From contig CP051243.1 of assembly GCA_017795025.1 (NCBI GenBank), forward strand, positions 1,116,001 through 1,180,000: a DNA stretch of 64,000 bases, written 5' to 3'. Numbering within the stretch: the stretch's first letter is position 1; each line of letters begins with the position of its first letter. Positions 158-13,126 of this stretch are shown here, piece after piece. Source of the stretch: Flavobacteriales bacterium (GTDB lineage: Bacteria; Bacteroidota; Bacteroidia; Flavobacteriales; Schleiferiaceae). The translations under genes and the position numbers were made by a program. The notes beneath the pieces are model-generated. The model was not told the DNA's origin and searched no databases. It worked only from the letters and a program-made list of their open reading frames with translations.

Positions 158-174
158 AAATTATTATTTGGTTA

Positions 175-617: not shown

Positions 618-1574
618 TCAGCTTGCTGTGGCTCTTTTTTCATAATATGACGATTTAATTTTATTATAGTTCCCATAGATAAAAGGGCAAGCTGAAATAC
701 ATTGACTACAATTTTTGGAAAAATGAGGTGCACACTTTTCTCGCTCTATAAACTGCGGGTATCCATCGTCCAAAATTTTAGTCTTTTCAAAAATCGCTTG
801 ACCTGGACATTTCTGGACGCATTTATTGCAGTCCTCACAGAATTCCCTGACCCACTTATGAGGGTTTTCATTAGCTTTTGAAATGGGTAGATTTTCTATA
901 TCAAGAAAAATTGCTGCCAATCGTAATGAAGGTCCATATTCTTCGGTAATTAGCAATCCATTCTTGCCTACGTATCCCAAGTGAGCTTCTTGTGCAACGG
1001 GTGTTATCATAACATCTCCTCCAATAGCAGGTGAGGGATGGCAGTTAAATCCTTTAGCTCTTATCCATTCAGCCATCTTGTTTACAGCTATTCCTAAGTT
1101 TGAGTAAGCATTCCAAATCTCTGCGGTTGACTCATCGGAAGGGTTTGTTTTCATTTTGTCCTTATCCATTTCCATTCCTAAAACCATCACATTGGGATAT
1201 AGTACTTCGAAACCTTTAAAAATAAAATCTCGGTTAATTGAAGTGTAGTCTATTTTGGATACCCCTAAGGTTTTTGCATAATCTTCAAATTCCTTTAAAG
1301 TTTGATTGTCTATTATTTTGTTGTTTCGATGTGGATTTCGTTTAAGGCTTGATGCACTTTTATAAAGTTCGATGAACGAGGTTTTAAAAGCTTTCTTAAC
1401 AATTGAGAAATTCTTAAACTTATCCCGAATACTACCAAATTGAAGAAGCAAAACAGGTATGATAACTGCTTTTCTCGAATTCTTAGTACTTTTTACTGGG
1501 TTATCCTTTTTCCTGATATAAAACTTAGCTTGAAGGAAAAAGGGTGGTTTCCGAATAAAACGATACAACTTCAT
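618..1574 (-). CDS. Double 4Fe-4S cluster protein, QueG/reductive-dehalogenase-like
   Basis: This 318-residue protein has two ferredoxin-type cysteine motifs near the C-terminus. The first is CEDCNKCVQKCP (about residues 243-254); the second, about 30 residues on, is of the form Cx8CxxCxxxCP. Before them comes a segment around GYVGKNGLLITEEYGPSLRL that resembles the substrate-domain core of epoxyqueuosine reductase (QueG) and reductive dehalogenases, which reduce substrates with a corrinoid and two 4Fe-4S clusters. No Tat signal is visible, so a cytoplasmic role is likely. It follows the FAD monooxygenase by 3 bp and shares the cassette with a TetR regulator. That context points to an inducible oxidoreductase pair rather than housekeeping tRNA modification. 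The exact substrate is unknown. Confidence 0.6.
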   Translation of the reverse strand: MKLYRFIRKPPFFLQAKFYIRKKDNPVKSTKNSRKAVIIPVLLLQFGSIRDKFKNFSIVKKAFKTSFIELYKSASSLKRNPHRNNKIIDNQTLKEFEDYAKTLGVSKIDYTSINRDFIFKGFEVLYPNVMVLGMEMDKDKMKTNPSDESTAEIWNAYSNLGIAVNKMAEWIRAKGFNCHPSPAIGGDVMITPVAQEAHLGYVGKNGLLITEEYGPSLRLAAIFLDIENLPISKANENPHKWVREFCEDCNKCVQKCPGQAIFEKTKILDDGYPQFIEREKCAPHFSKNCSQCISACPFIYGNYNKIKSSYYEKRATAS

Positions 1575-1577
1575 CGG

Positions 1578-2666
1578 TTACACTTTTATTTCGTGGTCAA
1601 GACCAAGAACAAAATCCTTGGCATAGTCTTCGGCAAATCTGAAAACTAAAGGTACTACTGGCGACATATGTCTTAGCATTTTACCTCGAAAAGAATGTCC
1701 ACGAACAACATCTGTCATCATTGCGATGCTATCCATAACCTTATCTACAACAGGTTTTCTCATATTGTGATATTCATTCAATCTGTTTCCTACAAATAGT
1801 TGTGAAAAAACATATGCATCTTCTATTCCCAAGTTCATACCTCTTGCCCCAAGCCCTGAATGAATATGTGCAGCATCTCCACCAAAAAATATGTTTTGGT
1901 GTCTAAACTGTTTAATAACCCTATGGCTAATGCCAAAATCTGACTCCCAAACAATCTTTCCTGTTGTTGTACCTTTTGGAAGGTAATCTAACATATGAGC
2001 AACACTACCAATTACTCTCCAAATATTATCGTACAGACGAACAACAAAAATGGCACCCTTGTCTAAAAGAAATACGTGACCTTCGTCCTCATTTATGGGA
2101 ATGTCAAGTTCTAAATCATATAAATTCCAAGGGTCATTCATTACTACTCCATCAAAAGAAAGGTTTAAAGATTTCCTTGTAGCACTTCCTGCTCCATCTG
2201 CACCAAAGAGGTATTTGGTTGAAATAAATTGCGTATTGTCTTTAAAGCCAAATAGAACTTGCTCGTTTTCTTGCTCAACTTTGTCCAATTCCTTGCCACG
2301 ATCTACTGAAATTCCACGCTCATTTATCAACTCTTCAAGAATTCTTTCGCTGTCTTCTTGTGATTGAACGAGCATAAATGGGAATTCAATGTCTTTTGTG
2401 CTAAAGTCATTTTTGACAACGATTTTACCATTTCGCCAGACATTTAAAGCATACATTTTTCTCCCATTTTCAAGAAAACGATTGGTTGCCCCTGTACCTT
2501 TAAGCAAGGTCAATGTTCTTGGGTTGACACCAAATGCTTTGGATAACCTTGACCTTTCAAGCCTTTTTTCAAAAATATAGGGTTCTACTCCATTTTCTTT
2601 TAAGAATAATGCAGTTGCCAATCCTGTTGGCCCTGCTCCTGCAATCGTTATTTCTTTCATATTCAT
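1578..2666 (-). CDS. FAD-dependent monooxygenase (PHBH fold)
   Basis: About 362 residues. There is an N-terminal dinucleotide-binding GAGPTG motif (about residues 8-13), then a FGADGAGS segment (about 155-162) and a second FAD motif GDAAHIHSGLGARGMNLGIED (about 264-284). The order is that of class A flavin monooxygenases acting on aromatic or polyketide-like substrates. ATG at 2666 is preferred over the upstream in-frame TTG at 2669. It is preceded by the TetR gene and followed within 3 bp by a 4Fe-4S protein, suggesting one transcript. Related enzymes hydroxylate phenols or inactivate antibiotics; nothing here decides between these. Confidence 0.8.
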   Translation of the reverse strand: MNMKEITIAGAGPTGLATALFLKENGVEPYIFEKRLERSRLSKAFGVNPRTLTLLKGTGATNRFLENGRKMYALNVWRNGKIVVKNDFSTKDIEFPFMLVQSQEDSERILEELINERGISVDRGKELDKVEQENEQVLFGFKDNTQFISTKYLFGADGAGSATRKSLNLSFDGVVMNDPWNLYDLELDIPINEDEGHVFLLDKGAIFVVRLYDNIWRVIGSVAHMLDYLPKGTTTGKIVWESDFGISHRVIKQFRHQNIFFGGDAAHIHSGLGARGMNLGIEDAYVFSQLFVGNRLNEYHNMRKPVVDKVMDSIAMMTDVVRGHSFRGKMLRHMSPVVPLVFRFAEDYAKDFVLGLDHEIKV

Positions 2667-2707
2667 CAAGTGTTTTAATCGTTTGTTTAATTAATGGCCA
2701 AATTTTT

Positions 2708-3322
2708 TTAAGATAGTTCAAGTGTCGCTTTTATCCATTTCGGGATAAGCATTCTCCTTTCATTAATAAATTGGTAATAAGCATCCTCATCCATATCCGC
2801 GATTTGACTTGCTATTGGAAGCGTTATGAACGGGAATACTGTAAGAGCAATAAAATTGATTACAAAATGCATCGGATTTATTGGCTTTTTATTGAGTACT
2901 ACAAGTCTTTCTTGGAATTGATGAAAAAATACAGACTGCGCTATTTTACTTGTAAATGGTACTTGATTAAGGTATTCTTTTGGATTATCCCTTACGGTAT
3001 TCATTATGAATGATGGTAGGTTCTTATTTACTGAAAACAAGTCAATGTAAAAATCTACCATTGCTTGAATTTTTTGGTCGAAGTTGGTATTTGGATTATC
3101 AAGAATTGTAAAAACACCTGCCATTAATTCTTGGAGCGTTTCTCTCATTATTTCATCAAAGAGCTTCTGTTTTGATCGGAAATAATAGTTGACCAAGGCA
3201 AGATTGGTGTCTGCCGCTTCTGCTATTTCGCGAGTTTTGGTAGCCGCAAAGCCCTTTTCCTGAAATAAGATTTTCGCTGCAACTTTTATTTTTTGTTCTG
3301 TTCCTGGATTTCGTTCGGTCAT
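2708..3322 (-). CDS. TetR-family transcriptional regulator
   Basis: This 204-residue protein has an N-terminal helix-turn-helix: EQKIKVAAKILFQEKGF, TKTREIAEAADTNLALVNYYFRSK and KLFDEIM segments (residues 8-60), typical of TetR repressors. The C-terminal ligand domain is all helical and unassigned. It heads the 3.39-kb distal cassette and is probably co-transcribed with the FAD monooxygenase and 4Fe-4S protein. A promoter with both Bacteroidota elements and two inverted repeats lies directly upstream, so autoregulation and control of the downstream oxidoreductases by a small molecule are likely. Confidence 0.88.
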   Translation of the reverse strand: MTERNPGTEQKIKVAAKILFQEKGFAATKTREIAEAADTNLALVNYYFRSKQKLFDEIMRETLQELMAGVFTILDNPNTNFDQKIQAMVDFYIDLFSVNKNLPSFIMNTVRDNPKEYLNQVPFTSKIAQSVFFHQFQERLVVLNKKPINPMHFVINFIALTVFPFITLPIASQIADMDEDAYYQFINERRMLIPKWIKATLELS

Positions 3323-3329
3323 AAAACAA

Positions 3330-3391
3330 ACATTTGAAAAGCAAATGTAGTAAGTTGAAAAGATTTAAACAAATGATTAAATCATTTGTTT
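3330..3391 (-). promoter_or_regulatory. Promoter and operators of the TetR cassette
   Basis: The minus strand carries a -33 box TTTG (3370-3373), a 20-bp spacer and a -7 box TACATTTG (3342-3349), a full match to the Bacteroidota consensus. A 25-bp palindrome (3367-3391, 12-bp arms AAACAAATGATT around one central base) overlaps the -33 box. A second inverted repeat ACATTTG-5-CAAATGT (3330-3348) covers the -7 box. Both arms contain CAAATG, as expected for two sites bound by the same TetR dimer. Confidence 0.8.
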
Positions 3392-3422
3392 TATAGTCTC
3401 CGAGTTTTGTTTTTAATTATTG

Positions 3423-3581
3423 CAACGACCAGCTATGATGAGTGGGGATTAGAAAGCTCTAACCTCTCGTCACGCACATAGCCACGCCTTGGTTTAAATT
3501 TTAAAACTTGTGGCGGACTTTCCAAGTGCCACCAAACTTTCATAACCGATAAAACCCCATTCATTCATAGCATTTGTTGGG
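3423..3581 (-). repeat. attC-like palindromic site with long loop
   Basis: Near-complementary arms GCTATGATGAGTGGGG and CCCCATTCATTCATAGC bracket about 100 bases. On the minus strand the ends read CCCAACAAATG and GGTCGTTGC, matching the YAACAAnG / CGTT pattern of the other sites. Confidence 0.75.
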
Positions 3582-3593
3582 GGGTGCGTTTGT

Positions 3594-4070
3594 TCAATCT
3601 GTTCGTTCAATTTGGATGTTTGTTACATCTACTGCAACAGTGTCAAAATATTCACTTGAAGCTTTAGTCAAGAACCGTTTCTTCCTCCAAGGTTCAAACT
3701 TTGCAAGTTTTTCATGTTCCTGGCTAATTGTTCTAAATCTATTGTCAATCCCATTTATGATGCTGAGAGTTGTCTGGTGTTCAGGAAATTCGGACAATAG
3801 TTCGGAGTTCACGAGCAAGTCAACAGGTTCCCTCCAAATATCCATATCATTATCGAATTCGTAGGATGTCATGTCATAACCTTGTTCAAGGTCTATAACG
3901 AAATCATCCCATCCAATGATTAGTTCTTCTAGGATCATGTCATGACCTACTTGATTCGGGTCAAAGTTTTTCTCGACTTCTGATTTGAACGCAAGCCGAT
4001 AGTTGTCATCGGTTATCTCAAATCCAAATCGCTCGTTCAGGTGTTCGGAAAATGGTTTTCGAATTTGCAC
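3594..4070 (-). CDS. Uncharacterised cassette protein
   Basis: 158 residues, acidic and soluble-looking, with no signal peptide, membrane segment or motif I recognise. A central stretch (about residues 45-85) is rich in Asp and Glu. The start codon is GTG at 4070, two bases after the stop of the upstream gene, so the two are almost certainly translated together. The stop codon lies 13 bp from the palindromic site at 3423-3581. Confidence 0.6.
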   Translation of the reverse strand: MQIRKPFSEHLNERFGFEITDDNYRLAFKSEVEKNFDPNQVGHDMILEELIIGWDDFVIDLEQGYDMTSYEFDNDMDIWREPVDLLVNSELLSEFPEHQTTLSIINGIDNRFRTISQEHEKLAKFEPWRKKRFLTKASSEYFDTVAVDVTNIQIERTD

Positions 4071-4072
4071 AA

Positions 4073-4516
4073 TTATCCAATCATATTGTTAAAACGTTCG
4101 TTTCCAAGAGTCTCCAATTGTTCCATTGTCCGAGAGGTTGATGGAGTAGAAAAGAGTTCCGTTAGTTCGTTATAATAGGTAGACAAAAAAGTCACTTGCT
4201 CACTTAACCCAAGTCTTTTATTAAGGATTTTCTTGCGTCCCATTTTTGTAAGTGGTTCAGTTGAGTAATTCAGCTGAATCAGTGAGTTTATAAGTTCAGT
4301 ATCTGTGAAGTTTTCAAACCCACTAATTGGCCCAACCTCTAAGTTGATAATTCCTCTGTCGTTTACCAATTGAATCCGAAGTTCGGAGTTCTGAAGCCTG
4401 ATAAGTGCACCGCCTGTTTTCGAGGATTGCTCTTCGTAAACCTCAAATCCGAGTTGAGTTGACGGGTTTTTCAAATGCCGTTGAAATTCTTGTTCGAGTG
4501 TTTCCTTGTAAGTCAT
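4073..4516 (-). CDS. Uncharacterised cassette protein, upstream partner
   Basis: 147 residues from ATG at 4516 (MTYKETLEQE). An in-frame TTG at 4543 would place the start inside the palindromic site and is rejected. Predicted content is an N-terminal helix, a beta-rich middle (about residues 20-60) and a helical C-terminal half. No family is recognised. With the gene at 3594-4070 it forms a two-gene cassette; small co-translated pairs of unknown proteins in cassettes can be toxin/immunity or defence pairs, but nothing in the sequence shows that. Confidence 0.6.
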   Translation of the reverse strand: MTYKETLEQEFQRHLKNPSTQLGFEVYEEQSSKTGGALIRLQNSELRIQLVNDRGIINLEVGPISGFENFTDTELINSLIQLNYSTEPLTKMGRKKILNKRLGLSEQVTFLSTYYNELTELFSTPSTSRTMEQLETLGNERFNNMIG

Positions 4517-4540
4517 GTTCTTCGTTCCGGCAATGCCTCT

Positions 4541-4605
4541 CAACGTCTCGTGTATGGTGTCGTAGCATACCGCAGGGTGCTATGCACTATACACAATGTT
4601 GGCGT
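4541..4605 (-). repeat. attC-like palindromic site (short type)
   Basis: Compact hairpin: arms GTGTATGGTGTCGTAGCATA and TGCTATGCACTATACAC around a short CCGCAGGG loop region. On the minus strand the ends are GCCAACATTG and GACGTTGAG. The cassette starting at GTTGGCGTG (near 5961) ends here with CACGCCAAC, an exact 9-base complement. Confidence 0.85.
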
Positions 4606-4614
4606 GTCGTTTTT

Positions 4615-4986
4615 TTATTCAGTTAATAGTTTTTTTCTGTATTCTATCATTCGGATTATCAATTCAGTCGGTAATGGTTTGTCCAATGGAAATTGAACCG
4701 AGCCTTTTCCTCGCTTATATTCAGTCAATTCAGGTTCAAACTTTTCCATTGTCGTTGGATGCGGATAAAGTCCTACGTGTTTTTTATATCCTGCAATCAT
4801 TATTTGCTGTTCCCTTTTTCCGTTTTTGACTAAAACATAAGCTGGTATATTATAGTTTAAAAGCTCAATTGCATCAGGAGCAACTTTTAAAATGCATTCT
4901 TTTAGCTCGTTTAGGGCATTTTTTGTGCGAGTCGGTTGAGAATTAAGATAGTCGGAAACGGATCTGAATTGAACAAGCTTGCTCAA
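4615..4986 (-). CDS. DUF1801 family protein
   Basis: 123 residues with the DUF1801 layout: an N-terminal helix pair (VSDYLNSQP, NALNELKECILKVAPDAIELLNYN), the IPAYVL turn near residue 48, a GYKKHVGLYPHP strand and a C-terminal RMIEYRKKLL helix. DUF1801 proteins are small cytosolic proteins, some called iron chaperone-like (YdhG), and often accompany AHSA1/SRPBCC and ArsR genes as here. It is the third gene of the 1419-bp cassette and its stop is about 10 bp from the palindromic site. Confidence 0.8.
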   Translation of the reverse strand: MSKLVQFRSVSDYLNSQPTRTKNALNELKECILKVAPDAIELLNYNIPAYVLVKNGKREQQIMIAGYKKHVGLYPHPTTMEKFEPELTEYKRGKGSVQFPLDKPLPTELIIRMIEYRKKLLTE

Positions 4987-5015
4987 TACTTAGTTCTCTT
5001 AGTTGATAACCATTG

Positions 5016-5498
5016 CTAAAGATCGGCTAATACTTTATCTAAGTTTTCATAAGCCATTTCAAGTCCTTCTTTCATGCCCATTTGAATTACTTGATTTAGA
5101 TGCTCTTCTGAGGCATATTCAGTAATTACAGTTACAGTTGTCGTTTTCGTGTTGCCTTGAAATTTATTAGTAAAAGTAGCTACTGGAAATTCTTTGTTTA
5201 TAACGCCTTCGTTATCGCAAAATGCATCTGAACCTGAAAATATCGTAGGCATATTTATCGTCATATAAGTTGTAAGTCCCCAATGCTCTTCACCTTCTGG
5301 GCCGACCATTGCATAGAGCCGTTTCCCATTAGGCTCAAAGTTCATTTCTTTCGTTTTAGATTTCCAAGGACTAGGTGCCCACCATTGATCTAGCAATTCT
5401 GCTTCTGTCCATGCTCTCCATACAATGTCAATTTCAGCATCAAACGTTCTAGTTACGGTTAGCTGACTTCCATTAGCTGTAAATTCTGTTTTCGCCAT
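5016..5498 (-). CDS. SRPBCC / AHSA1-like protein
   Basis: 160 residues. The N-terminal pattern FTANGSQLTVTRTFDAEIDI, followed by VWRAWTEAELLDQWWAPSPWK, is diagnostic of the AHSA1-type START-like (SRPBCC) fold, which forms a hydrophobic ligand cavity. The C-terminal helix (about 130-158) closes the cavity. It starts 2 bp after the ArsR gene's stop codon and is followed by DUF1801. The ArsR-AHSA1 pair is a recurring bacterial module whose ligand is mostly unknown. Transcription from the ArsR promoter is inferred. Confidence 0.85.
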   Translation of the reverse strand: MAKTEFTANGSQLTVTRTFDAEIDIVWRAWTEAELLDQWWAPSPWKSKTKEMNFEPNGKRLYAMVGPEGEEHWGLTTYMTINMPTIFSGSDAFCDNEGVINKEFPVATFTNKFQGNTKTTTVTVITEYASEEHLNQVIQMGMKEGLEMAYENLDKVLADL

Positions 5499-5499
5499 G

Positions 5500-5823
5500 T
5501 TATTTATCTTTTTTATTTTGAATTTTAGTTAAAAGTGTGTCTAATTGATTAAATCTCGCTTCCCAAAGTATTCGAAACGGTTCGAGCCATTCTGAAACTT
5601 CAAATAATTTTTCTACTTCCAAATAGCAATAACGTTCCCGTCCTTTTTTATCGATAGTAATAACATCACATTCCTGTAAATACTTTACATGAAGTGAAAC
5701 AGCTTGCCGAGTAATGTCAAATTTTTCAGCTAATGCATTTACATTCTGTGGTTCGGTAGTAAGGGACATAAGAATGCTTCTTCTCGTTGGATCTGCAATG
5801 GCATTGAATACATCTCTTCTCAT
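5500..5823 (-). CDS. ArsR-family HTH regulator
   Basis: 107 residues from ATG at 5823 (MRRDVFNAIADPTRR); an in-frame extension upstream would cover the operator and is rejected. The winged helix is clear: ADPTRRSILMSL, NVNALAEKFDITRQAVSLHVKYL and a KGRERYCYLE wing. No metal-binding cysteine pair is visible in the recognition helix, fitting the non-metal ArsR subgroup paired with AHSA1 proteins. It is first in its cassette with its own promoter and two operator-like palindromes. Confidence 0.88.
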   Translation of the reverse strand: MRRDVFNAIADPTRRSILMSLTTEPQNVNALAEKFDITRQAVSLHVKYLQECDVITIDKKGRERYCYLEVEKLFEVSEWLEPFRILWEARFNQLDTLLTKIQNKKDK

Positions 5824-5837
5824 TTGAAATTCCTTTA

Positions 5838-5885
5838 TGCAAGTTATTGCTTGCAAATATAAACGCAAGTATTTACTTGCGCAAA
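5838..5885 (-). promoter_or_regulatory. ArsR promoter with two operator palindromes
   Basis: On the minus strand TTTG (5882-5885), a 20-bp spacer and TATATTTG (5854-5861) give an ideal Bacteroidota promoter. Two inverted repeats share the half-site GCAAG: CGCAAGTA-TT-TACTTGCG (5864-5881), filling the spacer, and TGCAAG-6-CTTGCA (5838-5855), just downstream of the -7 box. Their centres are 26 bp apart. ArsR binding here would occlude the polymerase. Confidence 0.8.
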
Positions 5886-5958
5886 TTTATTTTCTCCATT
5901 CGTTTTCTGATTCTCTGAAGGTGACTTCTAAAATTTGGTACTGGTTTTTAAATGCACG

Positions 5959-6089
5959 CCAACGTTCCGGCTAGAGCATATAAAGGAGCTGCGAAGCCCG
6001 AATGCTTGGTTTTAGATTAATTAAGGTCCTTCAATATCGGGAACATTGTTTGAAGCAACAAGACCTTTATTGGCTATAGCCTTTGTTAG
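5959..6089 (-). repeat. attC-like site, type A copy 1
   Basis: Outer ends CCAACGTTCCGG and TGTTAG. Inner arms CTAGAGCATATAAAGG and CCTTTATTGGCTATAG pair imperfectly; the other three copies pair better. A nested inverted repeat AAGGTCCTT / AAGACCTT lies in the loop. The same 130-bp site occurs at 6916, 7167 and 8377, always attached to the gene-less unit. Confidence 0.85.
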
Positions 6090-6212
6090 AGCCTGGCCCC
6101 TTTCAAGCGGCTTGCCGCTTATTGTTTTGGAATAGTGAATGATGGAGAGAGATCTTTACCCTAAGTTGAGCTTAATGTGATGGAGAAGGGATTTTTCTTG
6201 GCTTGGCTCTAA
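5963..6212 (-). mobile_element. Gene-less 250-bp cassette, copy 1
   Basis: The unit consists of the type A site plus a 129-bp body (6085-6213) bounded by GTTAGAGCC and GGCTCTAAC, exact complements. The body holds a perfect 16-bp palindrome AAGCGGCTTGCCGCTT. No open reading frame longer than about 14 codons fits and no promoter is seen. Together with the two flanking sites it fills the 5869-6340 interval, which has no gene. This copy is closest to the copy at 8380-8629. Confidence 0.8.
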
Positions 6213-6336
6213 CGGTTTGCATATGGCTTGTGGCGGTTTCGGAGCACTTTCCTGTCCACCGAAACTAAAGCTGGATATGGAGCGAAAACCTTGCGTGAAG
6301 CCGTTCCCCCGCCATAAGCTATATGCGTTGTTGTGC
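6210..6336 (-). repeat. attC-like palindromic site
   Basis: Arms GCATATGGCTTGTGGCGG and CCGCCATAAGCTATATGC pair at 16 of 18 positions across a loop of about 70 bases. On the minus strand the ends read GCACAACAACG and ACCGTTAGAG. The cassette that ends here begins GTTGTGCTTA near 6918 and ends TAAGCACAAC, an exact 10-base complement. Confidence 0.85.
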
Positions 6337-6340
6337 TTAG

Positions 6341-6901
6341 TTATTTAATTTCAATCCAGTCATTAAAATCATATTCTCCAATCGCTAAATCATTGTAAGT
6401 CTTTATTTCTCCGGTACAGTAGTGCTTATATTTTTTCTTTGCCCTTTTTGTTGGCTTTAGGTTAGGTTTCCATTCTGGAGGTCTTAAGTCAGCACATCTG
6501 TACATTATATTAGCTGAATAAAAATCTCTATAAACAGCCTTATCAACTTTACTCGTTACATCCATTGTCATTTCAATTGTCAAGTTTGTAACGCTCTCTA
6601 CATGGAAGATGAAGAATTCATTTAAATAATTTGGATATAGAACTTTTATTGTCAATGAATCATTTTTGAGATTGCTTGAACATACAGGTAAATAAAAATA
6701 TCCAAATAAGTCCGACTTGATAACATCTACTCTGTTCGACCCATTGAAAACCTCAATTGCAACCAAAGCCAATGTGTCATTTGTATTTTTATCAATTGTC
6801 CAACCACTTATCTCAATCAATTTACCAACTTCATCAGCCACTTGACCTTTGGAAAATAAAGCTGTTAGAGTAAGGATAATTATTACAATGGAATTTTTCA
6901 T
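6341..6901 (-). CDS. Secreted protein with carboxypeptidase-regulatory-like domain
   Basis: 186 residues. The signal peptide covers about 1-19 (KNSIVIIILTLTALFSKGQ). Residues 27-115 resemble a CarboxypepD_reg-like beta sandwich: ISGWTIDKNTNDTLALVAIEVF followed by KSDLFGYFYLPV, the typical sequence of a periplasmic or extracellular repeat domain. The C-terminal 70 residues contain two Cys and a Lys-rich patch and are unassigned. The ATG sits only 15 nt after the cassette boundary with no promoter motif, so expression probably depends on read-through. Confidence 0.65.
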   Translation of the reverse strand: MKNSIVIIILTLTALFSKGQVADEVGKLIEISGWTIDKNTNDTLALVAIEVFNGSNRVDVIKSDLFGYFYLPVCSSNLKNDSLTIKVLYPNYLNEFFIFHVESVTNLTIEMTMDVTSKVDKAVYRDFYSANIMYRCADLRPPEWKPNLKPTKRAKKKYKHYCTGEIKTYNDLAIGEYDFNDWIEIK

Positions 6902-6915
6902 TTGTTAATTAAGCA

Positions 6916-7045
6916 CAACGTTCCGGCTATAGCCTATAAAGGAGCTACGAAGCCAGAATGCTTGGTTTTAAATTAATTAAGGTCCTTCAATATCGGGAAC
7001 ATTGTTTGAAGCAACAAGGCCTTTATTGGCGATAGCCTTTGTTAG
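6916..7045 (-). repeat. attC-like site, type A copy 2
   Basis: Ends CAACGTTCCGG and TTGTTAG. Arms CTATAGCCTATAAAGG and CCTTTATTGGCGATAG pair with two mismatches. Its R' side (GTTGTGC) belongs to the neighbouring secreted-protein cassette. Confidence 0.85.
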
Positions 7046-7169
7046 AGCCTGGCCCCTTTCTAGCGGCTTGCCGCTTATTGTTTTAGAAAAGTGAATGAAG
7101 GAGGAAGATCTTTGCCCGAAGAAGAGCTTGAAGTGAAGGAGATTGGGGTTTTTCTTGGCTTGGCTCTAA
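6919..7169 (-). mobile_element. Gene-less 251-bp cassette, copy 2
   Basis: Type A site plus body 7041-7170 between GTTAGAGCC and GGCTCTAAC. It is directly adjacent to copy 3, making a tandem pair of the same unit. Body sequence belongs to the second subtype (GGAGGAAGATCTTTGCCCG). With copy 3 and the following site it occupies 6902-7525, where no gene is seen. Confidence 0.8.
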
Positions 7170-7296
7170 CGTTCCGGCTATAGCCTATAAAGGAGCTACG
7201 AAGCCAGAATGCTTGGTTTTAGATTAATTAAGGTCTTTCAATATCGGGAACATTGTTTGAAGCAACAAGACCTTTATTGGCTATAGCCTTTGTTAG
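7167..7296 (-). repeat. attC-like site, type A copy 3
   Basis: Ends TAACGTTCCGG and TTGTTAG. Arms CTATAGCCTATAAAGG and CCTTTATTGGCTATAG differ from perfect complementarity at one position. It separates gene-less copies 2 and 3. Confidence 0.85.
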
Positions 7297-7419
7297 AGCC
7301 TGGCCCCTTACAAGCGGCTTGCCGCTTATTGTTTTAGAAAAGTGAATGAAGGAGGAAGATCTTTGCCCGAAGAAGAGCTTGAAGTGAAGGTGATTGGGTT
7401 TTTCTTGGCTTGGCTCTAA
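7170..7419 (-). mobile_element. Gene-less 250-bp cassette, copy 3
   Basis: Type A site plus body 7292-7420 (GTTAGAGCC to GGCTCTAAC). Nearly identical to copy 2, with a few substitutions and a 1-bp length difference, so the tandem arose recently or is being homogenised. Confidence 0.8.
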
Positions 7420-7540
7420 CGGTCTCGTATAAGCCCAGTGCGGCTCTGATTAATCTCTAGTGGTTAGTTAGAGCTTTAAATTTACGATTTCTTGTTCCCA
7501 AGGACCAAAGGCCACCGCATTGGGTTTATACATTGTTGGC
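7417..7540 (-). repeat. attC-like site of duplicated cassette, copy 1
   Basis: Arms TATAAGCCCAGTGCGG and CCGCATTGGGTTTATA pair at 14 of 16 positions around a 70-base loop. On the minus strand it starts GCCAACAATG and ends ACCGTTAGAG. The stop codon of the membrane-protein gene (7526-7528) lies inside one arm. Confidence 0.88.
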
Positions 7541-8379
7541 GTGTCGTGTTTTCCTATTTAATTCCCCAATCAGTTTCGGTAAATAATAGTAGTTCAGGCC
7601 GTAATGAAAAACTTGAAAATAAGCTGCAATTATTAAAACCAATGGTATCAACCATTCTTGTTTCAAAAAGTAAATAGGATAGAACAGGAGTGAAACCCCA
7701 AGTTCAATCATTATCTTTTTCTTGATGTTCTTTTTAATGTTTATGGTCTCGGTAAAACCTTCAAATTCCTTTAAATAACTCGACACTCTGTATTGATACC
7801 ACCAGGTTTCATAGAGCTCAAAAAGAATTATGAAGGATGTTGTTGAGATTAGAAATTCCTCTGTTTTAATAACAATCAGTAAGTAGGCAACCGTAATAGC
7901 AAATCTTCCAAATACTGGTAGTACTTCCGTTTTGAACCAAACACGTTCTCTTATGCTCGCATAGGCTGTTTGATTCCACCATGCGTCAATGCGGCCTGTA
8001 TCAAATTCCGTATCGGCCAACTCATTAAAGAGTTTTTTAGAATGGTCGTATTTTCTATTGTGGTGAAGTCCACGTCCGAGTTCGTATTTGACCTCGTTTA
8101 TTTGGTCGGTCTGATTGAGTTTATCTTCGATTGGTTGATAAGCCGCTTTGTATAGGTAATAAACAGCAGAATACTTTTCTCTTTCATTAAGCGATTTTGC
8201 TAGACGATGAATAATATTAGTGGCTCTATCATAATCCGAGGTTACAGTTTTTAGATTCTCCAAAATTCTGGACTGTCGGTTCTCCCAATAGCTTAAAACT
8301 TGAGCATCGGTTGTCAAGTCTTTTAAATCATTCCATATTTTATCAATTCTGCTCAATGTTTGTCTGACATGCACGCCAA
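7420..8379 (-). mobile_element. Duplicated 960-bp cassette, copy 1
   Basis: The unit begins GTTGGCGTG and carries CACGCCAAC before its site. It matches 10503-11462 over its full 960 bp with about four differences by eye, three of them in the site loop. Identity stops exactly at the predicted G|TT crossover on both sides. Confidence 0.88.
7526..8374 (-). CDS. Unknown membrane protein, duplicated cassette gene (copy 1)
   Basis: 282 residues from GTG at 8374; an in-frame TTG at codon 7 is the alternative, and no ATG exists nearby. Residues 1-145 are soluble and helical, with a helix-repeat look around 55-120. Four hydrophobic segments follow at about 151-170, 172-190, 221-237 and 241-258, with a basic loop KKNIKKK between pairs. 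No family is recognised. Both ends of the gene are set by cassette ends: the GTG is within 4 bases of the boundary motif and the last residues RHANNV are encoded by the recombination site. A second copy at 10609-11457 differs at residue 51 (Ala here, Val there). Confidence 0.7.
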   Translation of the reverse strand: MHVRQTLSRIDKIWNDLKDLTTDAQVLSYWENRQSRILENLKTVTSDYDRATNIIHRLAKSLNEREKYSAVYYLYKAAYQPIEDKLNQTDQINEVKYELGRGLHHNRKYDHSKKLFNELADTEFDTGRIDAWWNQTAYASIRERVWFKTEVLPVFGRFAITVAYLLIVIKTEEFLISTTSFIILFELYETWWYQYRVSSYLKEFEGFTETINIKKNIKKKIMIELGVSLLFYPIYFLKQEWLIPLVLIIAAYFQVFHYGLNYYYLPKLIGELNRKTRHANNV

Positions 8380-8506
8380 CATTCCGGCTATAGCATATAA
8401 AGAAGCTACGAAGCCAGAATGCTTGGTTTTAGATTAATTAAGGTCTTTCAATATCGGGAACATTGTTTGAAGCAACAAGACCTTTATTGGCTATAGCCTT
8501 TGTTAG
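8377..8506 (-). repeat. attC-like site, type A copy 4
   Basis: Ends CCAACATTCCGG and TTGTTAG; arms CTATAGCATATAAAGA and CCTTTATTGGCTATAG. It is the only R' end in the array, apart from the integrase-proximal site, that reads TGTT instead of CGTT. Confidence 0.85.
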
Positions 8507-8629
8507 AGCCTGGCCCCTTTCAAGCGGCTTGCCGCTTATTGTTTTGGAATAGTGAATGATGGAGAGAGATCTTTACCCTAAGTTGAGCTTAATGTGATGG
8601 AGAAGGGATTTTTCTTGGCTTGGCTCTAA
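8380..8629 (-). mobile_element. Gene-less 250-bp cassette, copy 4
   Basis: Type A site plus body 8502-8630 between GTTAGAGCC and GGCTCTAAC. Its body matches copy 1 (5963-6212) much better than copies 2 and 3, so two subtypes coexist. With the next site it fills 8375-8707, where no gene is seen. Confidence 0.8.
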
Positions 8630-8694
8630 CGTCTAATGTAACCGCAGTGGTGAAGCGCATGAGGAACCATTGTCGGTTACATATTGTTGGTGGC
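8627..8694 (-). repeat. attC-like palindromic site (short type)
   Basis: Arms TGTAACCGCAGTGGT and ACCATTGTCGGTTACA form a compact hairpin. On the minus strand the ends are CACCAACAATA and GACGTTAGAG. The cassette ending here starts GTTGGTGGCA and ends TGCCACCAAC, an exact 10-base complement. Confidence 0.88.
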
Positions 8695-8707
8695 AGTACC
8701 AAATTTC

Positions 8708-9478
8708 CTATAAGACATAAATATTTAATTGCTCACAATCATGTTCATTGCCAAAAATAAATACTTCATTTCTCATAGGAATATTAATTTGTCTGATCTT
8801 ATCCTTGATTCTGTCCAAACACAAATGAATTCCTAAAAATCCTTTCAGTAAAAACAATTTCTTTATTTCTTCTAAATACATTCCTCCACTTAAAGCCTCA
8901 TTAATCATTTCTACTTTTTCTTCTCCTATTTCCTCTTCGAATTTCAAATATGGGCTTAATATATTGCTATAATCAAAACTTCCAACTCCGTTAAACAACT
9001 CTTTCTTATAGTCATATTTTAAATATTCTTGCCCTGAAAGTAATTTATACTTATAGTTAGAATCATCAAATCCACAGAAACATGCTTCAGGTTCATAGTT
9101 ATGTTCTAAGAAAAGTAAATTTAATTTAAAGTTCTTTTTTTCCTTAGAGATATTTAGTGCAATTTTTGTGAGATTGTCAATCAATTGATATTCTATATTA
9201 TCCTGAAATTTCTTTTCATTAACATCTATAAGTTCTGTTAGTAGATTCTCTATCTTAGAATGAAGTTGACTGTCCTTCGATAATTCAATTAATTCTTTTT
9301 TGTTCTCTTTCTTTAAGCTCTCAAAATCGAATTCTGTACTCGGTAGCCATGTAATGTTGTCAAAATTGGCTAATTCTTGCTGGACTATATTCGGAAATGA
9401 AAATTGCCCTTTAAACAACTTTATTGAGTTACTTATATGATGTTCTAAGTTTTCTTTTATGAATTTATTTTTGTCCAT
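8708..9478 (-). CDS. Uncharacterised cassette protein
   Basis: 256 residues, Lys/Glu-rich and mostly helical in the first 130, with a CFCGFDD motif around residue 133 and no signal or membrane segment. ATG at 9478 follows the cassette boundary by about 30 nt. Base composition is very AT-rich (about 30% GC by eye), lower than the neighbouring cassettes, suggesting a separate origin. I do not recognise a family. Confidence 0.65.
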   Translation of the reverse strand: MDKNKFIKENLEHHISNSIKLFKGQFSFPNIVQQELANFDNITWLPSTEFDFESLKKENKKELIELSKDSQLHSKIENLLTELIDVNEKKFQDNIEYQLIDNLTKIALNISKEKKNFKLNLLFLEHNYEPEACFCGFDDSNYKYKLLSGQEYLKYDYKKELFNGVGSFDYSNILSPYLKFEEEIGEEKVEMINEALSGGMYLEEIKKLFLLKGFLGIHLCLDRIKDKIRQINIPMRNEVFIFGNEHDCEQLNIYVL

Positions 9479-9507
9479 TTCAATTATTACGTTTTATTTA
9501 TTGCCAC

Positions 9508-9555
9508 CAACGTTTAGTATATGGCGCGTTTTAATGCGCTATATACCTTGTTATG
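9508..9555 (-). repeat. attC-like palindromic site (minimal)
   Basis: The shortest site: arms GTATATGGCGCGTT and AATGCGCTATATAC with almost no loop. On the minus strand the ends are CATAACAAGG and AAACGTTGG. The TAA stop of the preceding gene (9551-9553) is part of the CATAAC end. Confidence 0.88.
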
Positions 9556-10039
9556 TTTTTTTCGTTTCTATTAAATATTGGTCAAATGAATGATATTTAT
9601 TCATTTTACTTGATTTTTCAATTTCTATATACATCCCTGGATTGTTAAGAAGTCCTGCAAGAGTTAGTTCTCGATTTATTGGATTCGTAACATTTTTCAC
9701 AACATCTATCAGATCACTTTTCTTTTTAAATCTAAAATGACATTCTCCATCATCATGAGTAGATAAGTTTCCAAATTCATTTAATTCAATTTCAAAATCG
9801 ATCAGTTCGAATTCATCTTCTTGCTCAAAAAATGACTTTACTTCCTTGACAGTTTTCCAATCAGGAAATTCTTTTTCCGTTGCCCATCCAAATTTCTTAT
9901 AGTTAGAAGCTCCAATATTTACTAATTGAACTTTTAGCTTTTCATTAATTGCTTTCAATCCATTAAGAGTAGAGAACTCTCCTAAGTAAAGTTCAAATTC
10001 GCTTTCAGCTTCTTTATATAAATATACGCTTGGGTTCAT
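9551..10039 (-). CDS. Uncharacterised cassette protein, second of pair
   Basis: 162 residues, acidic, no signal or membrane segment, no recognised family. A DDGECHFRF segment near residue 116 and alternating strand-like stretches suggest an alpha/beta fold. The ATG overlaps the stop of the upstream gene by 4 bp (10036-10039), indicating translational coupling. Its own stop codon is supplied by the recombination site. Confidence 0.65.
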   Translation of the reverse strand: MNPSVYLYKEAESEFELYLGEFSTLNGLKAINEKLKVQLVNIGASNYKKFGWATEKEFPDWKTVKEVKSFFEQEDEFELIDFEIELNEFGNLSTHDDGECHFRFKKKSDLIDVVKNVTNPINRELTLAGLLNNPGMYIEIEKSSKMNKYHSFDQYLIETKKT

Positions 10040-10482
10040 TTCAATTTTATCGGCAAATTCATACCATATCCTTCATCAGCAACAATTGTAACAGGCAGAT
10101 TTACATTCCGAGTATCTATTTGATTCCAGATTGACTCTAGCCAATCACCAACAACATCTGAAAGAGTGTCATTTACTTCAAAACTGGAATCGAAAGGATC
10201 CATCATTGGAACATTAGGTTCAAGTCCAGTTGAAGTATGTTTGACATCAATAATATCTGCAAATTCCTCAATGGCTTTATTCAACCCATACAAATCAGGA
10301 CCTGTTAAAGATACTCGAACTCCAAAAGTTCCTTCTCCTTCCTGATCGGGGAAAATCATGAGTTCAATACTCTTTACCTTGTCTGGCAAAGCTTGGAATG
10401 TAGTATTCAGCCTTTGAATTGCATTAACTGAATTTTCATCCAGAACTTTCCTTAATTCAATTCGATACTCGTTTTCTTCCAT
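10036..10482 (-). CDS. Uncharacterised cassette protein, first of pair
   Basis: 148 residues. The N-terminus EYRIELRKVLDENSVNAIQRL is followed by a beta stretch with FPDQEGEGTFGVRVSL (about residues 44-59), then GLNKAIEEFADII. The layout faintly resembles a DUF6389-type protein, but I cannot confirm this. ATG at 10482 lies about 20 nt after the cassette boundary and no promoter is visible. With the downstream gene it makes a 992-bp two-gene cassette. Confidence 0.65.
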   Translation of the reverse strand: MEENEYRIELRKVLDENSVNAIQRLNTTFQALPDKVKSIELMIFPDQEGEGTFGVRVSLTGPDLYGLNKAIEEFADIIDVKHTSTGLEPNVPMMDPFDSSFEVNDTLSDVVGDWLESIWNQIDTRNVNLPVTIVADEGYGMNLPIKLK

Positions 10483-10499
10483 ATTGATTCAATTACACA

Positions 10500-10623
10500 T
10501 AACGATCTCGTATAAGCCCAGTGCGGCTCTGATTAATCTTTAGTGGTTAGTTAGAGCTTTCAATTTACGATTTCTTGTTCCCAAGGACCAAAGGCCACCG
10601 CATTGGGTTTATACATTGTTGGC
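10500..10623 (-). repeat. attC-like site of duplicated cassette, copy 2
   Basis: Same site as 7417-7540 with three substitutions in or near the loop. On the minus strand it starts GCCAACAATG and ends GATCGTTATG. The flank after GTT (ATGTG) differs from copy 1 (AGAGCC), as expected if the crossover is at G|TT. Confidence 0.88.
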
Positions 10624-11462
10624 GTGTCGTGTTTTCCTATTTAATTCCCCAATCAGTTTCGGTAAATAATAGTAGTTCAGGCCGTAATGAAAAACTTGAA
10701 AATAAGCTGCAATTATTAAAACCAATGGTATCAACCATTCTTGTTTCAAAAAGTAAATAGGATAGAACAGGAGTGAAACCCCAAGTTCAATCATTATCTT
10801 TTTCTTGATGTTCTTTTTAATGTTTATGGTCTCGGTAAAACCTTCAAATTCCTTTAAATAACTCGACACTCTGTATTGATACCACCAGGTTTCATAGAGC
10901 TCAAAAAGAATTATGAAGGATGTTGTTGAGATTAGAAATTCCTCTGTTTTAATAACAATCAGTAAGTAGGCAACCGTAATAGCAAATCTTCCAAATACTG
11001 GTAGTACTTCCGTTTTGAACCAAACACGTTCTCTTATGCTCGCATAGGCTGTTTGATTCCACCATGCGTCAATGCGGCCTGTATCAAATTCCGTATCGGC
11101 CAACTCATTAAAGAGTTTTTTAGAATGGTCGTATTTTCTATTGTGGTGAAGTCCACGTCCGAGTTCGTATTTGACCTCGTTTATTTGGTCGGTCTGATTG
11201 AGTTTATCTTCGATTGGTTGATAAGCCGCTTTGTATAGGTAATAAACAGCAGAATACTTTTCTCTTTCATTAAGCGATTTTGCTAGACGATGAATAATAT
11301 TAGTGACTCTATCATAATCCGAGGTTACAGTTTTTAGATTCTCCAAAATTCTGGACTGTCGGTTCTCCCAATAGCTTAAAACTTGAGCATCGGTTGTCAA
11401 GTCTTTTAAATCATTCCATATTTTATCAATTCTGCTCAATGTTTGTCTGACATGCACGCCAA
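10503..11462 (-). mobile_element. Duplicated 960-bp cassette, copy 2
   Basis: Full-length match to 7420-8379, in second position from the recombinase. In classical integrons new cassettes enter at the recombinase-proximal end, so this may be the younger copy; that is inference. Confidence 0.85.
10609..11457 (-). CDS. Unknown membrane protein, duplicated cassette gene (copy 2)
   Basis: 282 residues, identical to the product of 7526-8374 except Val for Ala at residue 51. Same GTG start, same four hydrophobic segments in the C-terminal half, and same C-terminal RHANNV encoded within the site. Near-perfect conservation of both coding and site sequence indicates recent copying. Retention of two intact copies hints at a selected function or a very recent event. 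Function unknown. Confidence 0.7.
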   Translation of the reverse strand: MHVRQTLSRIDKIWNDLKDLTTDAQVLSYWENRQSRILENLKTVTSDYDRVTNIIHRLAKSLNEREKYSAVYYLYKAAYQPIEDKLNQTDQINEVKYELGRGLHHNRKYDHSKKLFNELADTEFDTGRIDAWWNQTAYASIRERVWFKTEVLPVFGRFAITVAYLLIVIKTEEFLISTTSFIILFELYETWWYQYRVSSYLKEFEGFTETINIKKNIKKKIMIELGVSLLFYPIYFLKQEWLIPLVLIIAAYFQVFHYGLNYYYLPKLIGELNRKTRHANNV

Positions 11463-11515
11463 CGGTTTGTGTATGTGCCGTATCCCGAAGGGTATGGCAT
11501 ATCCACTTTGTTAGC
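11460..11515 (-). repeat. attC-like palindromic site (short type)
   Basis: Arms GTGTATGTGCCGTATCCC and GGGTATGGCATATCCAC form a hairpin with a GAA loop. On the minus strand the ends are GCTAACAAAG and ACCGTTGGCG. The first cassette starts GTTAGCAGAA and ends TTCTGCTAAC, a 10-base exact complement. Confidence 0.9.
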
Positions 11516-11535
11516 AGAAGTGTTCTTTTATAATT

Positions 11536-11949
11536 CTAGTCTGGTGGGCTACTCCACCAATATGGCATTTCTGAAGTATTAATCGGTAATTGTAGATCTT
11601 TGTAAAGTCCTATTTTGGTACCAAGCTCAATACTATCCATAGGCCTGTCGATATAAATAACATTTAAATAGACGCTTTTTTCGCTATAAAGCACAAGATA
11701 TTTCTCGCCTTTTTTAGCATTACCAATTTCACCGAATTCGCCTCTATAAATAATCCCATTAACCTTATATTCATACTTTAAGTATTTTGCTCCTCTAGAG
11801 CCGCTTCGGATTCCCGTCACCTTTCCAACTGTGTATACTCCATTGTTTTTTAATTCATTGGATATAGAAAAAAGTTTGATACCAATAAACAGGAATAATC
11901 CTCCAATTAGAATTACCGAAATCAGTACTTGCTTATTTTTTTTCTTCAC
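11536..11949 (-). CDS. Membrane-anchored protein of first cassette
   Basis: 137 residues from GTG at 11949 (no ATG is available between the cassette start and residue 1). One N-terminal membrane segment at about 8-26 (VLISVILIGGLFLFIGIKLF) is followed by a beta-rich domain with YTVGKVTGIRSGSRGAKYLK and a YLVLYSEKS strand. The arrangement resembles DUF3592-type proteins, a loose match only. It is the recombinase-proximal cassette, so by analogy with integrons it would be the last acquired and best transcribed. Confidence 0.65.
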   Translation of the reverse strand: MKKKNKQVLISVILIGGLFLFIGIKLFSISNELKNNGVYTVGKVTGIRSGSRGAKYLKYEYKVNGIIYRGEFGEIGNAKKGEKYLVLYSEKSVYLNVIYIDRPMDSIELGTKIGLYKDLQLPINTSEMPYWWSSPPD

Positions 11950-11973
11950 TGGGTGTGGCTTATTATTTCTGCT

Positions 11974-12022
11974 AACACGTGGATATGGCTATATTGATTA
12001 TAATAATTTCTGTCCACATGTT
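11974..12022 (-). repeat. Integrase-proximal attachment site candidate (attI-like)
   Basis: Inverted arms AACACGTGGA (11974-11983) and TCCACATGTT (12013-12022) match at 9 of 10 positions around a 29-bp AT-rich centre. The site lies between the recombinase stop (12026-12028) and the first cassette. On the minus strand it ends CACGTGTTAGCAG, providing the GTT of the first boundary. Unlike classical attI sites it is palindromic, like the cassette sites. Confidence 0.6.
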
Positions 12023-12025
12023 CGG

Positions 12026-13126
12026 TTAATCCTTGTCATTTAGTGAATTAGCTTGAACAACCCAATCTAAAGGGTTGGTGATGTTTTCCAAATGTTGTTC
12101 GCTAACATGTGTGTAAATCTCAGTTGTTTTTAGTGAAGAATGACCCAGCAAAATTTGAATCTTCCGCACATCCGTACCATGATCTAAAAGATGAGTTGCG
12201 AAGCTGTGCCGAAGCACGTGTGGGGAAATTACTTTAATCCCTGCTTTTGTGCAAGTCTTTTTAACCAATTGGAACACACTTGAAGCAGAGTATTGACGTC
12301 CTCGCTGTAGGCCTTCGAAGAGCCAATATTGAGGCTTGTAGGTTTTCAGATATTGTTCCAGTAAAGGCCTCAGGGCAGAACTGAGATACCCTATTCGATC
12401 TTTTCGGCCTTTGGCTGCACGTATGTGAATGCGCAATCGATTTAGATCCAAGTCCTTAGTCCTTAAATTGATGAGCTCCGAACGACGTAATCCTGCCGAA
12501 TAGATTAAAGATAAAATGCTACGGTGCTTTAGATTTTCGGTTGCCGCTAGCAATTTAGCGACCTCCACCTCAGACAAAGTATCTGGAAGCTTCCGCTCCT
12601 TCCTTGGTCGGTCAAATTCATAAACCTTTCGTGGCCCTGTTTTTAGCTTTTCGAAGTAAAATTTAATCGCATTGATGGCCAAATTCTGACTGCTCGAACT
12701 AAATTTTAGATCCTTGATCAGATGCTCAATAAATTGATGAATATCTTTTTGACCTAAATCCTCAGTGGGGATCGGGTAATGGTAACGTAAAAACCGGTTA
12801 AAGAAGTTGCAATACGATTTTATTGTACTCTTAGAGTATCTTCTTCGTTCCAAAAGTTGAAGATATTCAGGTGGGACGAGATCTTTAGGAGTGGGCGATT
12901 CAACAGGTGGTCTTGCATCTTCAAATAGGAGATTGTACTCTTCCAAGTGTGCCAACAGCATCGTACGGCTCAGCCCCGCCTTTTGTACATACCACACTCG
13001 ATTCAAAGGCCTATACCAAGCACGATGCAATTCTTTAATTCGCGCTACCAATGCGGCATCATACTTAAATTTTAAACACCAAACTTTTTCACCTTCAAAG
13101 GTTTCCGTGCTTACAAAAACTTCCAT
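12026..13126 (-). CDS. Tyrosine recombinase, candidate cassette integrase
   Basis: 366 residues. Residues 1-75 form an N-terminal extension absent from XerC/D and IntI; 85-165 are a SAM-like core-binding domain; the catalytic domain follows. Visible catalytic residues are R214 (GLRRSEL), K239 (AAKGRKDR), H303 and R306 (HVLRH), H329 (LLGHSS) and Y338 (EIYTHV). K239 to H303 spans 64 residues, against about 72 in XerD and about 106 in IntI1, so the IntI-specific insertion seems absent. The tail NPLD resembles the SPLD tail of IntI proteins. It is transcribed towards the cassettes, the opposite of most integrons. No TAnnTTTG promoter is evident in the 180 bp upstream. Confidence 0.9.
   Translation of the reverse strand: MEVFVSTETFEGEKVWCLKFKYDAALVARIKELHRAWYRPLNRVWYVQKAGLSRTMLLAHLEEYNLLFEDARPPVESPTPKDLVPPEYLQLLERRRYSKSTIKSYCNFFNRFLRYHYPIPTEDLGQKDIHQFIEHLIKDLKFSSSSQNLAINAIKFYFEKLKTGPRKVYEFDRPRKERKLPDTLSEVEVAKLLAATENLKHRSILSLIYSAGLRRSELINLRTKDLDLNRLRIHIRAAKGRKDRIGYLSSALRPLLEQYLKTYKPQYWLFEGLQRGRQYSASSVFQLVKKTCTKAGIKVISPHVLRHSFATHLLDHGTDVRKIQILLGHSSLKTTEIYTHVSEQHLENITNPLDWVVQANSLNDKD

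Follow-up and report, generated by a model that had tools for sequence, protein, structure and literature searches.

A 960-bp DNA unit occurs twice in a 64,000-nucleotide stretch of a Flavobacteriales chromosome (the whole stretch, called the window here, comprises bases 1,116,001-1,180,000 of a genome assembled as a single contig of 3,439,134 bases with a completeness of 99.97%). The two units, at window positions 7420-8379 (copy A) and 10503-11462 (copy B), are probably copies of one mobile cassette, produced by copy-and-paste in a sedentary array that is run by the adjacent tyrosine recombinase, here called P0001, an integron-like enzyme without the I2 insertion of integron integrases (IntI). 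The system is best described not as an ordinary integron but as a variant of the integron kind, one that we did not find described previously in the literature.

Results

The duplicated cassette

A position-by-position comparison of the two units, 80 bp of flank included, found 956 of the 960 positions identical. The differences (copy A/copy B) are 7422 G/A, 7457 C/T, 7478 A/C and 8223 G/A, one of which alters the encoded protein (A51V, between the open reading frames (ORFs) of copy A and copy B). At the low end identity starts at a common AAC, preceded by CTCT in copy A versus ACAT in copy B; at the high end it stops after GCCAAC, and the sequence continues with CATTCC in copy A versus CGGTTT in copy B. 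In either copy identity ends, on each side, at the core crossover between AA and C; outside it the flanks are unrelated, with different neighbours at all four ends. An earlier, sequence-only reading of this DNA had noted two units of equal length, about four differences by eye and a break of identity at the predicted crossover on both sides, all of which is borne out: both units measure 960 bp, the differences number exactly four and the flanks have nothing in common over the 80 bp compared. The same reading had taken the duplicate as a sign of recent cassette movement. Movement is supported as the best explanation by the core boundaries, by the gene-less repeats of the same array and by the other loci described below; "recent" holds only in a relative sense, as four differences in 960 bp, with no clock attached.

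The part of the unit that forms the attC-like site (122 of the 960 bp; window 7420-7541) holds three of the four differences, the chance of at least three being about 0.007. These two are the only full copies of the unit in the genome, the third match covering 40 bp at 85%. The protein that the unit encodes matched no Pfam, NCBIfam or PADLOC family at E <= 0.01, and relatives of it were absent both from the remaining genomes of a sample of 395 from the order (E 1e-15) and from a plasmid collection (E 0.001). A chance origin of the duplicate is rejected by a 960-bp match at 99.6%. A transposon was likewise set aside: no transposase family was found in the unit, and neither terminal repeats nor target duplications were seen by eye, no tool having been used for that search.

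The array behind the recombinase gene

Outward from the recombinase gene (12026-13126) the minus strand of the window is divided into 13 stretches, each with an AAC core at its low end. The array is made of cassettes that are each closed by an attC-like imperfect palindrome with a GTT core, and all named cassette ORFs lie, like the recombinase gene, on the minus strand. Ten of the 14 boundaries came from a script run at a loose threshold; repeat register or visual inspection supplied the other four (36, 6919, 10503 and 11976). A gene-less unit of 250-251 bp occurs four times in the array, its copies being about 91-98% alike and bounded by cores. The array seems to extend past the window, with gene-less matches and attC-like sites at about 1,111.6-1,114.4 kb of the contig; two small outliers lie near 531 kb and 1,950 kb.

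An integron-like recombinase without I2

P0001 consists of Phage_integrase and SAM-like domains and carries the catalytic residues R214, K239, H303, R306, H329 and Y338. It passes the NCBIfam model NF040815 (recomb_XerA_Arch, "site-specific tyrosine recombinase/integron integrase"; 228 bits, cut-off 220) and fails TIGR02249, the integron integrase model (201 bits in two stretches, cut-off 265). The I2 insertion is missing: P0001 has 16 residues where IntI4 (2a3v) has 58. Between the K motif and the HxxR motif all 15 canonical IntI compared have 101 residues, 32 Xer proteins have 64-67 and 55 proteins of the P0001 type have 31-66 (median 59), so that P0001 itself is about 42 residues shorter here than 2a3v and the 15 IntI. 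Of the 55 P0001-type rows, 53 or more retain any given catalytic residue. A canonical integron was rejected on these grounds, the recombinase being below the TIGR02249 cut-off and without I2. An AlphaFold2 model (5 sequences; mean predicted local distance difference test score 72.9), in which the region of the catalytic tyrosine (331-342) is poorly modelled, aligned with archaeal XerA 4a8e at Z 24.3 (root-mean-square deviation (rmsd) 8.4, 248 residues) and with IntI4 2a3v at Z 18.7 (rmsd 4.2, 255 residues).

In a tree of 102 proteins (L156, L129, L040 and L118 were left out beforehand) the P0001-type and IntI rows stand together, apart from the 32 Xer rows (SH-aLRT 99); archaeal XerA was outside the tree. 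IntI forms one clade (support 99). The P0001 type is split when all 102 rows are included (2 changes) and falls on one side of a branch, with support 56, when the long-branched L039 and L051 are removed. It may or may not be one clade, and it may be either a sister group or an ancestor of IntI. The grouping apart from XerC/XerD argues against a Xer chromosome-dimer recombinase. The genome has two Xer-type genes besides (one over the XerD cut-off), which were the only other matches, and no second integrase of the integron type. P0001 had no match in a phage collection at E 1e-40, on which a phage origin was set aside; among viral contigs one pattern match and no relative were found.

attC-like sites and the asymmetry of their stems

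Sites were sought with a detector that pairs the boxes NNNNAAC and GTTNNNN and aligns the arms between them (Smith-Waterman, gaps allowed, G.T scored as mismatch), and were counted at a score of at least 24 with at least 5 of 7 box positions complementary. On the plus (bottom) strand the copy A site folds into an unbroken 17-bp L stem that includes two G.T pairs, at which places the minus strand has two mismatches. The copy B site is absent from the detector's listing, its core box ACATAAC pairing poorly with the far box. Predicted folding energies of the bottom and top strands are -17.0 and -15.5 kcal/mol for copy A and -15.9 and -11.9 kcal/mol for copy B.

In a wider comparison, sites found beside P0001-type and canonical IntI genes were reduced from 143 to 99 and from 40 to 24, respectively, by dropping near-identical L'' arms and arms aligned over fewer than 12 columns; both sets include some false sites. 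Gapless stems make up 67/99 of the P0001 type versus 2/24 of the canonical sites, 22/24 of which have gaps in the form of extra L'' bases, in agreement with the extrahelical bases published for canonical attC (as given in the sections cited of PMC3053210). Such extrahelical bases, a mark of canonical attC, are lacking in the copy A and copy B sites with their unbroken L stems; one of three window sites compared carries an extra base. In 66 gapless stems the arms of the same site agree at 83% of positions, and at 31% when arms are dealt to other sites, a contrast to be read with the detector's own selection for complementarity.

Mismatches of the G.T kind are distributed very unevenly between the strands. 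In the P0001 type 138 would pair on the bottom strand and 23 on the top; an excess on the bottom strand is seen in 68 of the 99 sites and on the top strand in 5. The bottom strand is predicted to be the more stable in 79/99 P0001-type and 16/24 canonical sites. A bottom-strand G.T at +15 after AAC occurs in 62/99 P0001-type versus 1/24 canonical sites (Fisher p 8e-8, sites of the same genome not being independent). Outside one clade the G.T places are +15 (40/68 sites) and +10 (31/68), and in the genomes of that 16-row clade +15 (22/31), with the opposite kind at +6 (15/31). Canonical sites have their extra base at +9 in 10/24 and at +16 in 8/24, so the G.T pairs lie about where canonical extrahelical bases sit. 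Two G.T places exactly 5 apart were found in 32/99 sites from 21/36 genomes, and in 0/24 canonical sites. Recombination of attC with attC by IntI1 or VchIntIA reportedly fails when extrahelical bases are lacking, attC x attI being less affected (cited sections of PMC2727003).

At many loci a palindrome followed by the first GTT core lies within about 40-110 bases past the recombinase stop; in the window the repeat behind the stop is imperfect and was read by eye. A palindrome search before the first core missed the window's own site, and in many rows its picks were weak or doubtful. The motif TAnnTTTG, which we take to be the Bacteroidetes -7 element, occurs between -30 and +120 around the frame end in 14/55 loci, against a mean of 3.7 and at most 8 in mononucleotide shuffles. 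Isolated attC-like sites were seen on the same chromosome far from the array in two cases (L013:5752-6350 and L014:4881). Behind the short-form relatives at L216 and L218 lie sites whose stems are much shorter (about 11-16 bp) and whose cores are GTTAG; they may represent an additional type of site.

The same arrangement in other genomes

A P0001-type gene is present in 58/395 genomes of the order sample (E <= 1e-62) and in 71/395 genomes of a phylum sample (E <= 1e-60). No TIGR02249 match over the cut-off was found in 395 genomes of the order drawn in the same way, its 14 control genomes being zero as well; the same search is positive in 84/296 genomes of the phylum, so the family search works. 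The genome search flags internal stops in some relatives; the frames taken from fetched loci are mostly full length.

We examined the flanks of 58 P0001-type loci (the window + 4 + 13 + 40; 14 of 66 listed places were left out) and of 16 canonical IntI loci chosen from a longer list. P0001-type genes have 142 attC-like sites in 373.0 kb of 3' flank versus 21 in 501.6 kb of 5' flank, and canonical IntI show the opposite, 40 sites in 130.8 kb of 5' flank versus 6 in 136.1 kb of 3' flank. Around 30 Xer-type genes there were 2 sites in 110.6 kb, which is background level. At least 3 kb of 3' flank was available at 42 of the 58 loci, of which 29 have two or more sites, 10 have one and 3 have none. 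Among all 58, L053 and L136 have two sites each on the 5' side. Several contigs end shortly behind the recombinase gene, as repeat-rich arrays would cause. From the phylum listing 20 loci outside the order were taken: the 12 long-form loci follow the same pattern (25 sites in 90.5 kb 3' versus 5 in 102.0 kb 5'), and the 8 short-form relatives are mixed (13 in 63.2 kb versus 5 in 65.9 kb), some with short stems.

Repeats of at least 200 bp and at least 90% identity lie 3' of the recombinase in 17/58 loci, and 9/58, including the window, have at least one repeat pair in which every end, in either copy, lies no more than 5 bases from a GTT. The chance closeness of one end to a GTT is not negligible, and the exact case of the window and that of L107, where a repeat of about 475 bp occurs four times at 100%, therefore weigh most.

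Relatives on plasmids

Plasmid records with a P0001 relative (E <= 1e-50) number 64, of which 47 are from Acinetobacter. Two Bacteroidales plasmid arrays carry immunity-type genes behind a recombinase 46% identical to P0001, with CCATTA-ended hairpins between the genes (L195:7879-14861 and L223:6879-12855; 6 and 4 hairpins, respectively, 3' of the recombinase gene and none 5' of it). The hairpin pattern was drawn from the first array, so that the second is the independent one. By our own reading of their gene content these are recombinase-associated acquired interbacterial defence (rAID) arrays. The hairpins of the window have another core type; the CCATTA pattern was run only on the part of the window outside the array.

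TnpF, which precedes tet(X3) in Acinetobacter, shares 49% identity with residues 124-356 of P0001, and in two TnpF-type records, pJAT2044 and pHH1107, tet(X3) lies behind the P0001 relative in the same direction (it is named TnpF in pHH1107). Around tet(X3) the detector picked up no P0001-type site, nor could a full attC be recognised. By eye, at L194:5043-7064, an attI-like palindrome and a GTT core stand between TnpF and tet(X3), and an R''-L'' half site follows tet(X3). A tet(X2) plasmid region from Bacteroides carries no annotation of a recombinase of this kind.

Contents of the array

The features of the window are collected in Table 1. Two of the gene-less copies (6919-7169 and 7170-7419) stand side by side. 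The long inter-core stretch at the far end may be more than one cassette; its four ORFs encode a TetR-type regulator, a FAD monooxygenase, a reductive-dehalogenase-like protein and one protein that received no assignment. The monooxygenase (1578-2669) lies beside the TetR-type regulator, and its best NCBIfam matches, all below the cut-off, include a rifampin monooxygenase model.

Table 1. Features of the array and its recombinase (window positions).
Feature	Position	Strand	Remarks
Inter-core stretch, 3390 bp	36..3425	-	four ORFs; core at 36 by eye
Cassette, 1118 bp	3426..4543	-	two ORFs
Cassette, 1419 bp	4544..5962	-	DUF1801, AHSA1 and ArsR-type regulator genes
Gene-less cassette copy 4, 250 bp	5963..6212	-	
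Cassette, 706 bp	6213..6918	-	ORF 6341-6901
Gene-less cassette copy 3, 251 bp	6919..7169	-	
Gene-less cassette copy 2, 250 bp	7170..7419	-	
attC-like site, copy A, 128 bp	7414..7541		core CTCTAAC, far box GTTGGCG
Cassette copy A, 960 bp	7420..8379	-	ORF 7526-8374(-), 282 aa
Gene-less cassette copy 1, 250 bp	8380..8629	-	
Cassette, 881 bp	8630..9510	-	ORF 8708-9478
Cassette, 992 bp	9511..10502	-	two ORFs, one DUF6389
attC-like site, copy B	10497..10624		placed by identity with copy A
Cassette copy B, 960 bp	10503..11462	-	4 differences from copy A; ORF 10609-11457(-), one aa different
First cassette, 513 bp	11463..11975	-	ORF 11536-11949
Presumed attI region	11970..12028	-	directly after recombinase stop; first core GTTAGCA 11970-11976; imperfect inverted repeat by eye
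Tyrosine recombinase P0001, 366 aa	12026..13126	-	extra N-terminal part of ~85 aa, core-binding and catalytic domains

Discussion

How the second copy may have arisen

The bottom strand of the attC-like site, which is the plus strand of the window, would fold into a hairpin, and the recombinase would cut this hairpin at the core, between AA and C on the bottom strand and between G and TT on the gene strand, and recombine it with another site. The cassette's bottom strand would then leave as a circle, the top strand keeping the cassette, and insertion of the circle at the presumed attI, just behind the recombinase gene, would complete a copy-and-paste duplication. The cassette at 11463-11975 would have entered later, in front of copy B. 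Observed are the exact core boundaries, the array with its side and strand, the features of the recombinase, the asymmetry of the stems and the recurrence of the arrangement in other genomes; that P0001 acts on these sites, that a single strand is used, the direction of copying and the replication step are inferred. Copy-and-paste duplication by semi-conservative excision has been described for class 1 integrons (cited sections of PMC8024014).

Several observations weigh against this interpretation. The I2 helix is reported to be necessary in IntI1 and to be the basis of single-strand recombination (cited sections of PMC7790495), so that single-strand use in an enzyme that lacks I2 is not a given. 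The rAID-like recombinases match with no insert, and yet their hairpins keep an unpaired base; a strict rule that the lack of I2 entails the lack of unpaired bases is rejected by these same hairpins. Gaps are found in the stem alignment of 32/99 P0001-type sites, and the predicted folding energies of the two window sites are only moderately below those of shuffles (z -2.0, -1.9, -2.6, -0.6), so that little can be concluded from folding energy by itself. The strict site threshold yields 5 sites in the window, and the loose one also yields 3-14 sites in shuffled sequence. At the 5' rate 15.6 of the 142 sites on the 3' side are expected as background, 16/58 loci offer less than 3 kb of 3' flank, and 13 of the other 42 have fewer than two sites, with none at L039, L053 and L132. 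Finally, 8 of the 17 loci with long repeats had none bounded by cores.

Among the alternatives, the one that survives best, and that we nevertheless hold unlikely, is that the recombinase runs the array through double-stranded, Xer-like sites, the hairpin potential being a by-product of paired binding sites. The missing I2 insertion and the lack of conserved extrahelical bases would suit such an enzyme, as would the closest solved fold, that of XerA, ahead of IntI4. The arms, however, differ greatly in sequence between sites yet agree within each of them, and the bias towards G.T on the bottom and A.C on the top strand would be needless for a duplex site. Somewhat less likely again is the separate entry from outside of two near-identical cassettes, not copied within the genome. 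Integron-type systems do take up outside circles, and the crowding of the differences in the attC part is not predicted by a single recent copying; but with no relative of the cassette protein in the order sample or among plasmids such an outside pool is not visible, and within this array the gene-less unit has been copied repeatedly.

It is very improbable that the array is a relic, that is, an attC cluster that has no integrase and was once moved by a canonical IntI encoded elsewhere, with P0001 as a bystander. P0001 scores below the IntI model cut-off and is no integrase by that definition; but no gene over this cut-off was found in the 395 genomes of the order by a search that succeeds in the phylum, and in many genomes it is the P0001-type recombinase that is accompanied by an array on this side, by stems of this type and by a site following its stop codon. 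More improbable still is homologous recombination, unequal crossing-over or gene conversion, for which the long identical stretches of the array could serve as substrates. The sequence-only reading had argued that homologous duplication would not stop exactly at the core, and on these boundaries, with flanks that share nothing, we reject it too; moreover, the copies are dispersed and not in tandem, and core-bounded repeats recur in other arrays. An assembly artefact is very unlikely in a single 3.44-Mb contig of the completeness given above, with four differences between the copies and different neighbours at their four ends.

Significance

Copying within the array by its own recombinase, our preferred explanation, bears on the question of what makes an integron integrase. 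The I2 helix has been described as what made an integron integrase out of a double-strand recombinase, a view that lacks direct proof because deletion of I2 kills IntI1 (cited sections of PMC7790495). A natural sister group that runs attC-like arrays with no I2 would make the question testable. Surveys that require an IntI domain are expected to file such arrays as integrase-less clusters. IntegronFinder 2.0 lists a single complete integron for Bacteroidetes proper, that of Salinibacter ruber M1, where formerly only In0 were known, and complete integrons also in Chlorobi and Ignavibacteriae (cited sections of PMC9024848). Our literature search, which covered chiefly open-access papers, found no description of Bacteroidota attC arrays under the control of a recombinase without I2.

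A broader proposal, to which we give about an even chance, is that Bacteroidota harbour a widespread second integron lineage that never had I2 or has lost it, in which bottom-strand G.T pairs replace the extrahelical bases at about the same places and I2 is unneeded for single-strand recombination. This lineage would include the rAID arrays and TnpF-tet(X), so that, if the proposal is true, a last-line tetracycline resistance gene was once one of its cassettes. The I2-less group would also offer a mechanism for the gain of genes by rAID arrays and a role for the XerD beside tet(X), matters left open in the cited sections of PMC12247911 and PMC7473080, respectively.

Comparison with known systems

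The first paper on acquired interbacterial defence reportedly described repeats between rAID genes and may already liken them to integrons; the link between the two may thus be partly known already. The rAID clusters combine a tyrosine recombinase with short co-oriented genes and conserved intergenic motifs (cited sections of PMC12247911). A related tyrosine recombinase with a co-oriented gene array is what the window has as well; the rAID-like arrays differ in their CCATTA core in place of GTT, in hairpins that keep an unpaired base and in their immunity gene contents. Nor is the window array one of orphan type VI secretion system immunity genes: those of its cassette genes with a family match have DUF6389, AHSA1, ArsR, DUF1801, FAD monooxygenase, reductive-dehalogenase-like or TetR domains, and the others have no assigned family. 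The TnpF or "XerD" genes beside tet(X) differ in that the annotated TnpF is short (222 codons with the stop) and lies amid mobile-element genes (an ISVsa3 transposase in one record).

With XerA, XerC and XerD P0001 shares the fold, the catalytic residues, a score over the NF040815 cut-off and the lack of an insertion between the motifs. It differs from XerC and XerD in that its type trees with IntI, attC-like sites around Xer-type genes being at background. The Treponema integron resembles the system in having the recombinase and cassettes in one direction, with the 3' end of the recombinase gene towards the array; there the recombinase was treated as an intI of the known family (both after the cited sections of PMC3607928), the insertion of which is missing in P0001. 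A further comparison is with sedentary chromosomal integrons that have a canonical IntI (TIGR02249). From these the system differs in its I2-less recombinase, in an array that lies 3' of the recombinase gene and in stems mostly free of extrahelical bases. It shares with them co-oriented, mostly single-gene cassettes, attC-like imperfect palindromes of the form R''-L''-L'-R' with GTT/AAC cores, a presumed site beside the recombinase gene, gene-less cassettes and cassette duplications.

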